NCBI GenBank assembly: GCA_011620345.1
Contig: WOZJ01000042.1
Location: 1 to 32,049 of the forward strand
DNA: 32,049 nt
Reading direction: 5' to 3'
Source of the DNA: Nitrospirota bacterium
GTDB taxonomy: Bacteria; UBA2233
The translations under genes and the position numbers were made by a program. The notes beneath the pieces were generated by a model. That model was not told the origin of the DNA and made no database searches. It was given only the letters and a program-made list of their open reading frames with translations. Below, piece by piece: positions 10,501 to 18,170 of this stretch (the first letter of the stretch is position 1; each line of letters begins with the position of its first letter).

Positions 10501-11372
10501 CCCAGACACGCCTGTTTGCCGAGCGCTTTAAGGGGGTACATAAAGAGGCCCTTGTCGAGACGCTGCCTTTGCTCACGACGGGCGACAAGCTTTTGGACGC
10601 CCCTCTGGCCAGCATCGGGGGCAAGGGGGTGTTTACCAAAGAGCTCGACGAAGCACTATTGTCAAAAAGGGCGGATGTGGCCGTCCATAGCCTAAAGGAC
10701 GTCCCGCATACGCTGCCCAATGGCCTTGCCATCCTAGCATTCCTGACCCGCGAAGACCCTTTGGACGTGCTTGTCTCAAAAACGGCCAAGGCGCTTGAGG
10801 AGCTTCCCCTAGGCGCTCGTGTTGGAACCTCGAGCCTAAGGAGGCAGGTTCAACTCTTGAACATGCGCCACGACGTGCGTATCGTCCCGATTCGCGGAAA
10901 CGTGGGGACACGCCTAAAAAAGCTCGAGACGCAAGGCCTTGATGCCGTTATCCTTGCACGCGCTGGCATTGTACGTCTTGGCCTCGAGCTTGATTACTCT
11001 CCTATCCCGAAAGAGACGATCATCCCAGCCTTAGGGCAGGGCATCATCGCGGTCGTAGGCAGGGAGGGCGAAATCGAGATGACCCGGGCGCTTGGCGCGC
11101 TTACCGACCCCAGGACGACGATCGAGGCCCGTTGCGAGCGCCGGTTTGTCAAGCTTGTAGGGGGGAGCTGTCAAGTGCCCGTAGCGGGAAACGCAAGCCT
11201 TGTGGAGGGCAAGCTGTTATTTCAGGCCGCGGTGGGGTCGCTCGATGGCCGCATCTTGCTGAAGGCAAAGGCTTCGGCAGGGCCGGAGTCCCCGGAGCGG
11301 TTGGCAGACGAGGTGTTCGAGGAGCTCAACGGACAAGGGCTCCAGCCTCTTTTAAAGGATATTGTCGGATGA
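10455..11372 (+). CDS. hemC: Porphobilinogen deaminase (hydroxymethylbilane synthase)
   Basis: A 305-residue cytosolic enzyme that joins four porphobilinogen units into hydroxymethylbilane. Family blocks are IRIATRKSPLALAQ (4-17), GGKGVFTKELDEALL (56-70) and AVHSLKDVP. Next come GTSSLRRQ (124-131) and RGNVGTRLKKL (148-158). The dipyrromethane cofactor attaches to Cys239 in VGGSCQVPVAG. Length is normal. The start fits the family N-terminus and has AAGGA about six bases upstream, although it lies inside the hemA reading frame (46-base overlap). The stop forms ATGA with the next gene. Confidence 0.96.
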   Translation: MERIRIATRKSPLALAQTRLFAERFKGVHKEALVETLPLLTTGDKLLDAPLASIGGKGVFTKELDEALLSKRADVAVHSLKDVPHTLPNGLAILAFLTREDPLDVLVSKTAKALEELPLGARVGTSSLRRQVQLLNMRHDVRIVPIRGNVGTRLKKLETQGLDAVILARAGIVRLGLELDYSPIPKETIIPALGQGIIAVVGREGEIEMTRALGALTDPRTTIEARCERRFVKLVGGSCQVPVAGNASLVEGKLLFQAAVGSLDGRILLKAKASAGPESPERLADEVFEELNGQGLQPLLKDIVG

Positions 11373-12925
11373 ACGGAACTTTCCCCCCTAGAGGGAAAGT
11401 CTTTTTGGTCGGAGCGGGCCCGGGAGACCCCGGGCTTTTGAGCCTAAAGGGGTTTCAGTGCATCCAAATGGCCGAGGCTATCGTTTACGACGCGCTGATC
11501 TCCTGGGAACTAGAGCGGCTTTTCCCACAAGGGGCAAGGCGGGTGTTCGTAGGAAAGCGGAGCTCGAGGCATACGCTTCCCCAAGAGGAGATCAATCGTT
11601 TGCTTGTTCGCTTGGCAAACGAAGAGGGGCTTCGGGTCGTTCGGCTCAAAGGCGGCGATCCGTTCGTGTTTGGGAGAGGCGGCGAGGAGGCGCTTGCGCT
11701 CAAAGAGGCCGGGGTACCCTTTGAGGTGGTCCCTGGGGTCAGCTCGGCGTTTGCCGTCCCCGCCTACTCTGGGATTCCCGTGACACACCGTAAGGTCGCG
11801 AGCACGGTAGCGATTGTGACGGGCCATGAGGACCCAAGCAAGCCCGCCGGTCACCTCGATTTCCATGCGCTTGCAAGCTTCGATACGATCGTGTTCTTGA
11901 TGGCGCTGCACAGCCTCGAACACAACGTCTGCAGGCTCATCGAAGCGGGCAAGGACGCTTCCGCTCCAGCTGCGCTCATTCAAGCCGGGACGACTCCAAG
12001 GCAGCGTACGCTCCTTGCGCCGTTGGAAGAGATTCCCAGGATTGCCGAGCGTGAGGCGATTGGCGCTCCCACCGTGCTCGTGGTCGGCGAAGTCGCCAGG
12101 CTTCACGAACAGCTGAACTGGTACGAGACGCTTCCATTGTTTGGGAAGCGTATCCTAGTGACAAGGCCCAAGGAGCGCTCGGATACGCTTCTGGCAGGCC
12201 TAGAAGCGCTTGGTGCCGAAGCGGTATCCTTGCCGATGATCGAAACGCGCCCTCTTTTGGATGGAAACGACGCAAGAGCGCTCGCTAGCGAGCTCCACAC
12301 GCTCGATTTGGTAGCCTTCAGTTCTCAAGCCGGCGTGGAGGTTTTTTTCCAGGCCCTTTACGCTATCGGTAAGGATGCACGCGCCCTGGGCAGTACCCTA
12401 GTGGCCGCCGTTGGCGAAAAGACAGCGGAGACGCTCAAGAGTTACGGGGTTCTTCCAGACCTCGTGCCAAAGGAGGCCAACGCCGAAGCGCTCCTTCGAG
12501 AAATCCTGGAGGCCTTTCCTGGGCTTAAGCGCGTGCTTTTGCCAAAGGCCAAGAAGGGGCGCACCCTGCTCGAGGAAGGCTTGAAGTCGAAGGGGATTTC
12601 TGTCGTGACGCTCGATGCCTACGAAACGATTGGAGTAAAGCCATCAAGCGAGGTGCTCGAGGGTTTGGATCTCGAAGGGTTCGATTGGGTGCTTTTTGCC
12701 TCCCCTTCTGCTGTGGCGCAGTTTCTCGAGATCTTCGGCGAGGCGGCCTTGCGCCTCCCGGCAGGGCCAAAGGTTGCCTGCATCGGGCAAACGACGGCCA
12801 TGGCGTTTGAGCCAAGAGGGCTCAGGGTCGATGCGCTGGCCAAGGGAAGTTCGGCAACGGGCTTGATCAAAGCAATGCTAGCGTTTGAACAAAAGGAGGG
12901 GGCATGTTTCCAGAAAGGAGAATGA
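11369..12925 (+). CDS. cobA-hemD: Fused uroporphyrinogen-III C-methyltransferase / uroporphyrinogen-III synthase
   Basis: A 518-residue two-domain protein. Residues about 8-250 are the SUMT/CobA methyltransferase, with VGAGPGDPG (14-22), RLKGGDPFVFGRGGEE (92-107), VPGVSSAFAVPAYSGIP and a TTPRQRT block near 208-214. It methylates uroporphyrinogen III twice to precorrin-2. From about 256, LFGKRILVTRPKERS opens a HemD domain to about 505, which cyclises hydroxymethylbilane to uroporphyrinogen III. The fusion places the producer and first consumer of uroporphyrinogen III in one chain. ATG 11369 overlaps the hemC stop as ATGA. The in-frame extension to 11132 lies inside hemC and is not credible. 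The 3' end overlaps hemB by 22 bases. Confidence 0.93.
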   Translation: MNGTFPPRGKVFLVGAGPGDPGLLSLKGFQCIQMAEAIVYDALISWELERLFPQGARRVFVGKRSSRHTLPQEEINRLLVRLANEEGLRVVRLKGGDPFVFGRGGEEALALKEAGVPFEVVPGVSSAFAVPAYSGIPVTHRKVASTVAIVTGHEDPSKPAGHLDFHALASFDTIVFLMALHSLEHNVCRLIEAGKDASAPAALIQAGTTPRQRTLLAPLEEIPRIAEREAIGAPTVLVVGEVARLHEQLNWYETLPLFGKRILVTRPKERSDTLLAGLEALGAEAVSLPMIETRPLLDGNDARALASELHTLDLVAFSSQAGVEVFFQALYAIGKDARALGSTLVAAVGEKTAETLKSYGVLPDLVPKEANAEALLREILEAFPGLKRVLLPKAKKGRTLLEEGLKSKGISVVTLDAYETIGVKPSSEVLEGLDLEGFDWVLFASPSAVAQFLEIFGEAALRLPAGPKVACIGQTTAMAFEPRGLRVDALAKGSSATGLIKAMLAFEQKEGACFQKGE

Positions 12926-16526: not shown

Positions 16527-18170
16527 GTGGCAAGAAAGCGAAGCGCGCTGAAAGCGATCGGAGAGGAAGTCCTCTATTTTATCGTACGCACCCTCTTTTG
16601 GGCTGTCCGGTTAGTGCCCTTGCGCGCGCTTCCCTTGCTTGGAGCGATACTCGGCGTTACGGCATTTTGCTTTATTTTTGGGAAGCCAAGACGAATCGCC
16701 TACAAAAACATGCGAGTCGTGTTCGGACCCGACATGGCCTGGTTTGCCAAGCGTGCGCTTCTGTTCCGCTCGTTCGTTCACGCCGCCCAAGGCATTCTCA
16801 TCGCGTGCTTGGCGGATCGCCTGGGTGATCGTATCGAAGGGTTGTTTCATGTCCGTGGTGAGGAGTACCTCCGCCCATTCCTTGAAAAAGGCCAAGGCGT
16901 TGTCCTCTCTAGCATCCACATGGGCGCTTTCATGCTGACCTACAAAAAGCTGTCCAAGCTCGGGTTGGAGGTCTACTACACGGTTCGTAGGCCCAGAAAT
17001 GAGAAAATCGCCGGGCTCTTGATGGGGTTTATGAGCAAAAGCGGGGTTCGGTTTATCCAAGACAAACCCAAACATCGTAGCGCCCTAGAGAACTTAAGGG
17101 CCCTAAAGGAAGGCGGGGCGATTGTACTAATGACGGACATGAAGCACAGCCCGGAAGATGGCGTATGGACGGAGTTCTTCGGGCATAAGGTGCTTAGCTT
17201 TTCAGGCGGAGCGGTCCTTGCCAAAAGGGCGGGGGTACCGATCGTCCCGATGGTTACGTACAAAGAGGGCGGCGCATACACGATCGAGTTCTTTCCTCCG
17301 ATCTTGCCTAAGGCGGACCAAGAGCCCTCCGAACTCGTCCAAGCCTACTCGAGCGTGCTCGAGCAAGAAATTCGCAAGCGGCCCGAGCAGTGGTGGTGGT
17401 TTCATGACAGGTTTAGGGGCGCCATTCCCATCGAGGCCCCTAAGGCTTTCCAAAGACCCTTGTCGTTCTCGACGCGGTTGTTCCTTTACGGTGGGGTTTC
17501 TATTTACAAGCTCTTCTACCGGTCGCTTCGTATCAGGGTCGTGGACGAGTTTGGAAGGCCGTGGGACCTAAGCGAGTTGCCAAGGCCGGCCATCTACGCC
17601 GGTTGGCACAGCGGCCAGGCGGTCATTCCTGGATTCCTGGGCGGGCTTGGTACAAGTTTCCTCGTTTCTAAGAGCAAGGACGGGGAAGTCTTCGCGCGGG
17701 TTATCAAGGCGTTGGGCGGGAAGGCCGTTCGAGGGTCTTTTCAAAGGGACGGCGCCAGGGCGCTTGCAGAACTCATCCGGCTCTTGAAGGCGGGAGGTTC
17801 GACAACGTTATCCCCTGATGCGCCTAGGGGGCCAAGGTGCGTGGCCAAAGAGGGCGTTGCCTATATGTCGCTAAAAACAGGCGCCCCTGTTGTGCCGTTC
17901 GGTATTTATGCCCAAACTAAGGTTGTTCTCAAAAGCTCGTGGGATCAAACATGGATCCCGTTGCCCTTTTCTACGGTCATTATCGTCGTAGGAAGGCCTA
18001 TAGACAAGGAATCGGTTCCCTCCGGCATGCCGGAGGGCTCAAGGGAGAGCCTGCGGGCAAGGATAGAAGCCGAGCTGAACGCCCTTCAAGCGAGAGCGCA
18101 GGAGCTTGCATCTCACCAAAGGCTCTTTTCTAAATCTTGGCGGGGGGTAGGAGGTGTCGAAGGCCCGTAA
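16527..18170 (+). CDS. Tandem acyltransferase: LpxL-like domain fused to DUF374 domain
   Basis: A 547-residue protein with two acyltransferase-like halves. Residues about 15-300 resemble LpxL/HtrB lipid A acyltransferases. They have a membrane-anchoring N-terminal helix, SIHMGAF with His131, TEFFGHKVLSFSGGAVLAKRAG (214-235) and QWWWFHDRF (289-297). The usual acid five residues after the histidine is replaced by Met136. Residues about 315-515 are DUF374, with AGWHSGQAV (His361), SKSKDGEVFARVI, VRGSFQRDGARAL and SPDAPRGPR. A role in acylating lipid A or another envelope lipid is inferred. The GTG start is the first plausible in-frame codon; AAAAAGG lies about 12 bases upstream. It follows polA by 67 bases with no clear promoter or terminator between. 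The 3' end overlaps the opposite-strand PBP gene. Confidence 0.8.
   Translation: MARKRSALKAIGEEVLYFIVRTLFWAVRLVPLRALPLLGAILGVTAFCFIFGKPRRIAYKNMRVVFGPDMAWFAKRALLFRSFVHAAQGILIACLADRLGDRIEGLFHVRGEEYLRPFLEKGQGVVLSSIHMGAFMLTYKKLSKLGLEVYYTVRRPRNEKIAGLLMGFMSKSGVRFIQDKPKHRSALENLRALKEGGAIVLMTDMKHSPEDGVWTEFFGHKVLSFSGGAVLAKRAGVPIVPMVTYKEGGAYTIEFFPPILPKADQEPSELVQAYSSVLEQEIRKRPEQWWWFHDRFRGAIPIEAPKAFQRPLSFSTRLFLYGGVSIYKLFYRSLRIRVVDEFGRPWDLSELPRPAIYAGWHSGQAVIPGFLGGLGTSFLVSKSKDGEVFARVIKALGGKAVRGSFQRDGARALAELIRLLKAGGSTTLSPDAPRGPRCVAKEGVAYMSLKTGAPVVPFGIYAQTKVVLKSSWDQTWIPLPFSTVIIVVGRPIDKESVPSGMPEGSRESLRARIEAELNALQARAQELASHQRLFSKSWRGVGGVEGP

Follow-up and report, generated by a model that had tools for sequence, protein, structure and literature searches.

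A fused LpxL-like/LpxJ-like (DUF374) acyltransferase gene in the phylum UBA2233, a candidate bifunctional late acyltransferase of lipid A

A single open reading frame in the analysed window (the whole stretch of 32,049 nucleotides of contig WOZJ01000042.1) encoded an LpxL-like and an LpxJ-like (DUF374) acyltransferase domain, one after the other. On balance, we lean toward a bifunctional late acyltransferase of lipid A, formed by the fusion of an adjacent gene pair. This reading draws on the domain architecture, its conservation, the selection acting on it, the residues of the two sites and the pathway context, and it is the most economical one. That both halves are catalytic and that lipid A is the acceptor is inferred, as are the positions, the acyl chains and the order of transfer. 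The preliminary description of this DNA had suggested a two-step lipid acyltransferase; the idea is the best supported of the readings in view of the two families, the purifying selection and the lipid A genes, and the interpretation given there is partly supported as a whole. The host phylum is a little-known one. UBA2233 in GTDB corresponds to Candidatus Cutipiota, with two genomes of 1.80–1.89 Mb and 55.75–56.11% GC (PMC11382960). The window had a GC content of 55.9% and its genome a size of 1.796 Mb, in line with these figures, and it is on this agreement that the genome is assigned to the phylum. The organization of the gene is given below in window positions, all on the forward strand.

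16527..18170, + strand: fused LpxL-like/LpxJ-like (DUF374) acyltransferase gene, encoding 547 aa between a GTG start and a TAA stop
16566..17417, + strand: first half, PF03279 Lip_A_acyltrans domain (residues 14–297), with hydrophobic helices at the start
16917..16934, + strand: block I, from His131 (catalytic base position) to Met136, which is Glu/Asp in most homologues (LpxL E137, LpxM E127)
17031..17033, + strand: block II, Met169, Arg in most homologues (LpxL R169, LpxM R159)
17136..17138, + strand: block III, Asp204 (LpxL D200, LpxM D192), unchanged across the 147 homologues and the proposed partner of His131
17418..17465, + strand: short linker, residues 298–313; the junction has low pLDDT in each of the two models
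17466..18128, + strand: second half, LpxJ/DUF374-type acyltransferase, residues 314–534 (Pfam core 17649–17837)
17604..17609, + strand: Trp360-His361, equivalent to R. typhi LpxJ W60-H61 (PMC6148475)
17679..17681, + strand: Asp385, equivalent to R. typhi LpxJ D86 (PMC6148475)
17817..17819, + strand: Asp431 of PDAPRGP, equivalent to R. typhi LpxJ D132, the proposed partner in the His dyad (PMC6148475)
17940..17945, + strand: Trp472-Asp473, equivalent to R. typhi LpxJ W172-D173 (PMC6148475)

The frame was free of internal stops across its 547 codons, and both Pfam families were matched in it, in agreement with the earlier proposal of two fused acyltransferase folds. PF03279 matched residues 14–297 with an E-value of 4e-37 (128 bits against a gathering threshold of 22.3, covering positions 13–294 of the 295 in the profile). 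PF04028 (DUF374) matched residues 375–437 with an E-value of 3e-21 (75 bits against 26.8), and a separate domain search of each half returned the same two families. The absence of the acid five residues after the histidine of block I (H+5) was also borne out: the context reads SSIHMGAFML, with Met at H+5. Proteins lacking this acid are called acid-less hereafter. The gene lay beside polA, outside the lipid A cluster, and its final 58 bases were overlapped by a convergent penicillin-binding-protein-like (PBP) gene on the other strand. Further PF03279 and DUF374 copies existed in the genome besides the fusion, and any of them could be the one acting on lipid A.

DUF374 is LpxJ, a characterised late acyltransferase of the alternative type, which places the 3′ secondary acyl chain on lipid A (PMC6148475), and the fusion therefore joins both classes of late lipid A acyltransferase. 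In Rickettsia typhi LpxJ, residues W60, H61, D86, D132, W172 and D173 are essential, and H61–D132 was proposed as the catalytic pair (PMC6148475). All six were kept in the second half, as W360, H361, D385, D431, W472 and D473, the match being made solely by conserved column and spacing. The second half was modelled, on the basis of its DUF374 relatives, with a pLDDT of about 90 over most of its length. His361 and the PDAPRGPR block, on which this half had been called intact, were both present, but the HX4D/E motif was absent (WHSGQAV), as it is throughout the LpxJ family (PMC6148475). Solo DUF374 genes of the window's genome (L008, G000:C26 6330–7067) and of Nitrospirae bacterium UBA2233 (L064, G001:C47), the only other genome of the genus in the comparison, are orthologues and showed Gly at the D86 position. 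With Gly in the solo gene, the fusion therefore carried the only DUF374 domain found in UBA2233 with all six LpxJ residues and a complete site. The solo gene on C26 adjoined a fadB/fadA-like pair.

The AlphaFold2 model of the first half had pLDDT values mostly of about 85–97. The closest solved relatives, by profile and by fold, were LpxM and PatA (Foldseek: PatA 5oce, E 3e-15 and TM 0.80 on the target; also LpxM 5kn7). No NCBIfam LpxL cut-off was reached (100 bits against 248 for PRK08419, 86 bits against 298 for TIGR02207), and this half is classed from its sequence as LpxL-like, not as LpxL proper in the sense of TIGR02207 and PRK08419. In the profile alignment, H131, M136, M169 and D204 corresponded to H122, E127, R159 and D192 of LpxM, with the offset of the deposited-chain numbering counted by hand. 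Block I reads HMGAFM and does not contain HX4D/E; the block-I His and block-III Asp of LpxM (H122 and D192) are there as H131 and D204. The Arg that partners the missing acid in LpxM and LpxL was also gone, being M169, and the consensus residues W135 and Q205 likewise differed.

In the LpxM structure, H122 hydrogen-bonds D192 and E127 pairs with R159 (PMC6286764). The published counterparts of Asp204 are E200 in PatA and D532 in VexE (PMC6286764, PMC9597891). The activity of E. coli LpxL falls 3000-fold in E137A and 170-fold in R169A, and only 15-fold in D200A (PMC6286764); because of these losses, the absence of both Glu and Arg should hurt the first half unless it is compensated, and this is the main fact that speaks against the bifunctional reading. 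VexE, which has Tyr at H+5, is active, with H466A abolishing the activity and D532A strongly reducing it (PMC9597891), and it sets the precedent for a site of the His–Asp type. A missing H+5 acid need not mean that the first half is dead. This half must compensate or work with a different substrate or donor, unless it has become non-catalytic.

The H+5 position was Asp or Glu in 44 of the 51 homologues of a set with mostly one or few sequences per phylum. The acid was absent from 31 of 147 LpxL-type homologues in a larger set, picked by similarity to the first half and enriched for acid-less proteins by construction, and HX4D/E therefore does not define the PF03279 family. The His131 and Asp204 columns were invariant in all 147. 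Among the 31 acid-less proteins, 23 had also lost the Arg partner. The co-loss of acid and Arg looked perfect in the 51 sequences, but 8 of the 31 in the larger set kept the Arg and the independent pairs were too few for a test, so that an association is claimed here and not a strict coupling.

The homologues of the two halves were aligned separately, as a mixed alignment put N-terminal homologues on the C-terminal half. A mixture-model tree of 70 representatives, from which the H+5 and Arg columns were left out, contained one branch with 18 acid-less proteins, including the fusion, and two proteins with HxGNFE (UFBoot 99, SH-aLRT 99). The two remaining acid-less rows of the 70 were placed elsewhere. 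This largely acid-less, well-supported branch is spread over many phyla. In a quick LG+G4 tree, the fusion fell within a clade that bears the acid. We preferred the mixture-model tree, though the branch is long, and since the simpler model put the fusion in another place, its exact position is less certain than the support figures suggest. Members of this branch also stood beside lpxJ in G094, G362 and G232, all from a single other phylum, as three or four tandem acid-less LpxL-like genes (L136–L138). The order in G094 (L136, G094:C14 956–7831) was msbA-lpxJ-kdtA, four acid-less lpxL-like genes, then lpxK, with msbA, kdtA and lpxK named from their translations.

The window's genome encoded lpxC. 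It also held a cluster (L216, G000:C68 367–7727) in which a gnnA/gnnB-like oxidoreductase and aminotransferase preceded lpxB-msbA-kdtA-lpxK; lpxB, kdtA and lpxK were confirmed by Pfam, and msbA and gnnA/gnnB were named from family membership. The gnnA/gnnB-like genes upstream of lpxB suggest that the lipid A of this phylum may contain a 2,3-diamino sugar. In two phyla, a gene for an AMP-binding acyl-activating enzyme directly preceded an acid-less LpxL-like one, on contig C64 of the window's genome (L007, G000:C64 146–3367) and at L141 (G035:C106 2345–4829). The two ligases were 33% identical to each other, and a DUF374 gene followed in L007. The acyl-activating enzyme and the acid-less gene could form a dedicated acyl-donor cassette.

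These loci bear on a rather unlikely alternative, in which the fusion is a bifunctional or single acyltransferase for an acceptor other than lipid A (a glycolipid, a lysophospholipid or a capsule anchor) and a dedicated acyl-activating enzyme feeds the C64 paralogue. The C64 pair and the acid-less relative from another phylum indeed follow the acyl-activating enzyme and not lipid A genes, the fusion gene itself is away from the lipid A cluster, and LpxL-like proteins such as VexE and PatA use other sugars (PMC9597891), PatA having the solved fold that comes nearest to the first half. However, the second half retains every one of the six LpxJ residues, the genome has a lipid A pathway, UBA2233 yielded no second DUF374 copy with a complete site, and the lipid A operon of G094 includes acid-less relatives.

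It is also unlikely that the LpxJ half alone is catalytic, with an inactive first half serving as a membrane anchor or as an acceptor-binding or docking module. The family residues E136 and R169 are both Met here, alanine at the matching positions leaves E. coli LpxL almost inactive (PMC6286764), and the changes at W135 and Q205 point the same way. Yet His131 and Asp204 are kept, the core of the first half (residues 100–300) had a dN/dS of 0.075 (Nei-Gojobori, window against UBA2233), the unfused C64 paralogue has the same site, and the acid-less branch is large and includes one lipid A operon that holds four of its members in tandem. The earlier suggestion of a binding or docking module started from the missing acid, a weak premise: 31 of the 147 homologues lack it with His131 and Asp204 invariant, VexE is active without it (PMC9597891), and the DUF374 half is acid-less too.

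The fusion homologue of UBA2233 also had 547 residues and was 93% identical at the amino acid level from end to end. The two genes aligned over 1641 nt without an indel, with the TAA stop at the same place, and the gene order hemB-polA-fusion-PBP was common to both genomes. The remaining genomes compared were related to the fusion at the domain level only. By the same Nei-Gojobori comparison, dN/dS was 0.15 for residues 1–300 and 0.12 for residues 336–547; with the value for the core, this places both halves under purifying selection. A missed stop or frameshift near residue 305, named in the preliminary description as a possible refutation, is ruled out, and so is an assembly join there, by the indel-free orthologue encoding the same 547 aa, the synteny and the dN/dS values. 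An artefactual fusion, whether from a frameshift that was missed, from misassembly or from a chimeric call, is thus most improbable: the genome is a draft in 72 contigs and no further PF03279–DUF374 fusion was seen among the matches listed for the frames examined in the 386-genome sample, but a separately deposited genome shows the same length, frame and stop with synteny kept, and the proteins are 7% divergent, most of the changes between the genes being synonymous. Upstream of hemB, at 11132–12925 of the window, cobA (uroporphyrin-III C-methyltransferase) and hemD (uroporphyrinogen-III synthase) were apparently fused, as read from the translation only.

On contig C64 of the same genome, an LpxL-like gene (HMGLFM) and a DUF374 gene followed each other unfused and in the same order as in the fusion. 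The two genes overlapped (L007): a start codon of the second gene lies at 2639, ahead of the first gene's stop codon at 2658. In the trees, the first half grouped with the first gene of C64 (100/100) and the second half with the second gene (99/88). The C64 pair was sought in the UBA2233 genome and was not found. Duplication of a gene pair and fusion of one of the two copies, or these events the other way round, would explain both the fusion and the C64 pair. Relatives with separate halves and an intact HX4D/E had been considered damaging to the idea of a fusion; the halves are separate in the C64 pair, but HX4D/E is not intact there.

A search for the same architecture, as had been suggested, found it in UBA2233 and, among the matches listed for the frames examined in the 386-genome sample, in none outside this genus. 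In other genomes, DUF374 was fused to KdtA, LpxK or a GT9 glycosyltransferase, and the joining of LpxJ to envelope-lipid enzymes is therefore a recurrent event. The large DUF374 frames elsewhere were of these three types where scanned, with PF03279 in none, and several further ones resembled GC-rich read-through and were also without PF03279. The plasmids searched for the fusion contained separate LpxL-like genes only, and no report of an LpxL-LpxJ fusion was found in the literature searched. A 666-aa LpxL-LpxL fusion with two tandem PF03279 domains, both with H-x4-E intact, was observed at L086 (G036:C59 510–2507).

We propose that the protein is a membrane-anchored late (secondary) acyltransferase of lipid A, in which each half would add one fatty acid to the lipid A precursor, on a primary hydroxyacyl chain. 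If the known enzymes are a guide, the acylated chains would be the 2′ and 3′ chains. Catalysis would rely on the His–Asp pairs of blocks I and III, His131–Asp204 and His361–Asp431, in place of the HX4D/E pair. The source of the fusion would be an adjacent, translationally coupled lpxL-like/lpxJ-like gene pair. A fuller version of this model is plausible but tentative. In it, one polypeptide installs both secondary chains of lipid A through two sites of the His–Asp type known from LpxJ, PatA and VexE, and the LpxL-like half comes from the acid-less branch of many phyla, its Glu–Arg acyl-binding pair replaced, perhaps to suit another acyl donor or chain.

If both halves work, LpxL-type and LpxJ-type acylation would be tied to one pathway, and the fusion would be a natural test of coupling between the two transfers. 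The H+5 acid, often used to call LpxL-type enzymes active or dead, is absent across a branch of many phyla, and acid-less LpxL-type proteins should not be annotated as inactive. The invariant His and Asp support the view, derived from LpxM, PatA, LpxJ and VexE, that the His and the block-III acid are catalytic and that the Glu–Arg pair serves acyl binding.

With LpxL/HtrB and LpxM (PF03279), the fusion shares the fold, the hydrophobic N-terminal helix, His131, Asp204 and the C-terminal P-x2-W-x-W-x-H-x-R block; it differs from them by its second acyltransferase and by having Met both at H+5 and at the position of the partner Arg. The six essential residues and the absence of HX4D/E are common to the fusion and to LpxJ (DUF374, PF04028) of Rickettsia, Helicobacter and Campylobacter, but in the fusion DUF374 is the C-terminal half and PDG has become PDA (Ala432). 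VexE, the acyltransferase of the Vi antigen anchor, is like the fusion an LpxL-like protein with a His–Asp pair, a fused domain and no acid at H+5 (Tyr in VexE); its partner domain is a TPR and not an acyltransferase, and its acceptor is UDP-GlcNAc. PatA, the mycobacterial PIM acyltransferase, resembles the first half in fold and uses the His and the block-III acid as its catalytic pair. In contrast to the first half, it retains the block-I Glu–Arg pair (PMC9597891), has another acceptor and is a single-domain protein. The DUF374-KdtA, DUF374-LpxK and DUF374-GT9 proteins and the PF03279-PF03279 protein of L086 likewise join DUF374 or LpxL domains to envelope-lipid enzymes, but their partners are different, and PF03279 and DUF374 were combined in none of those examined.
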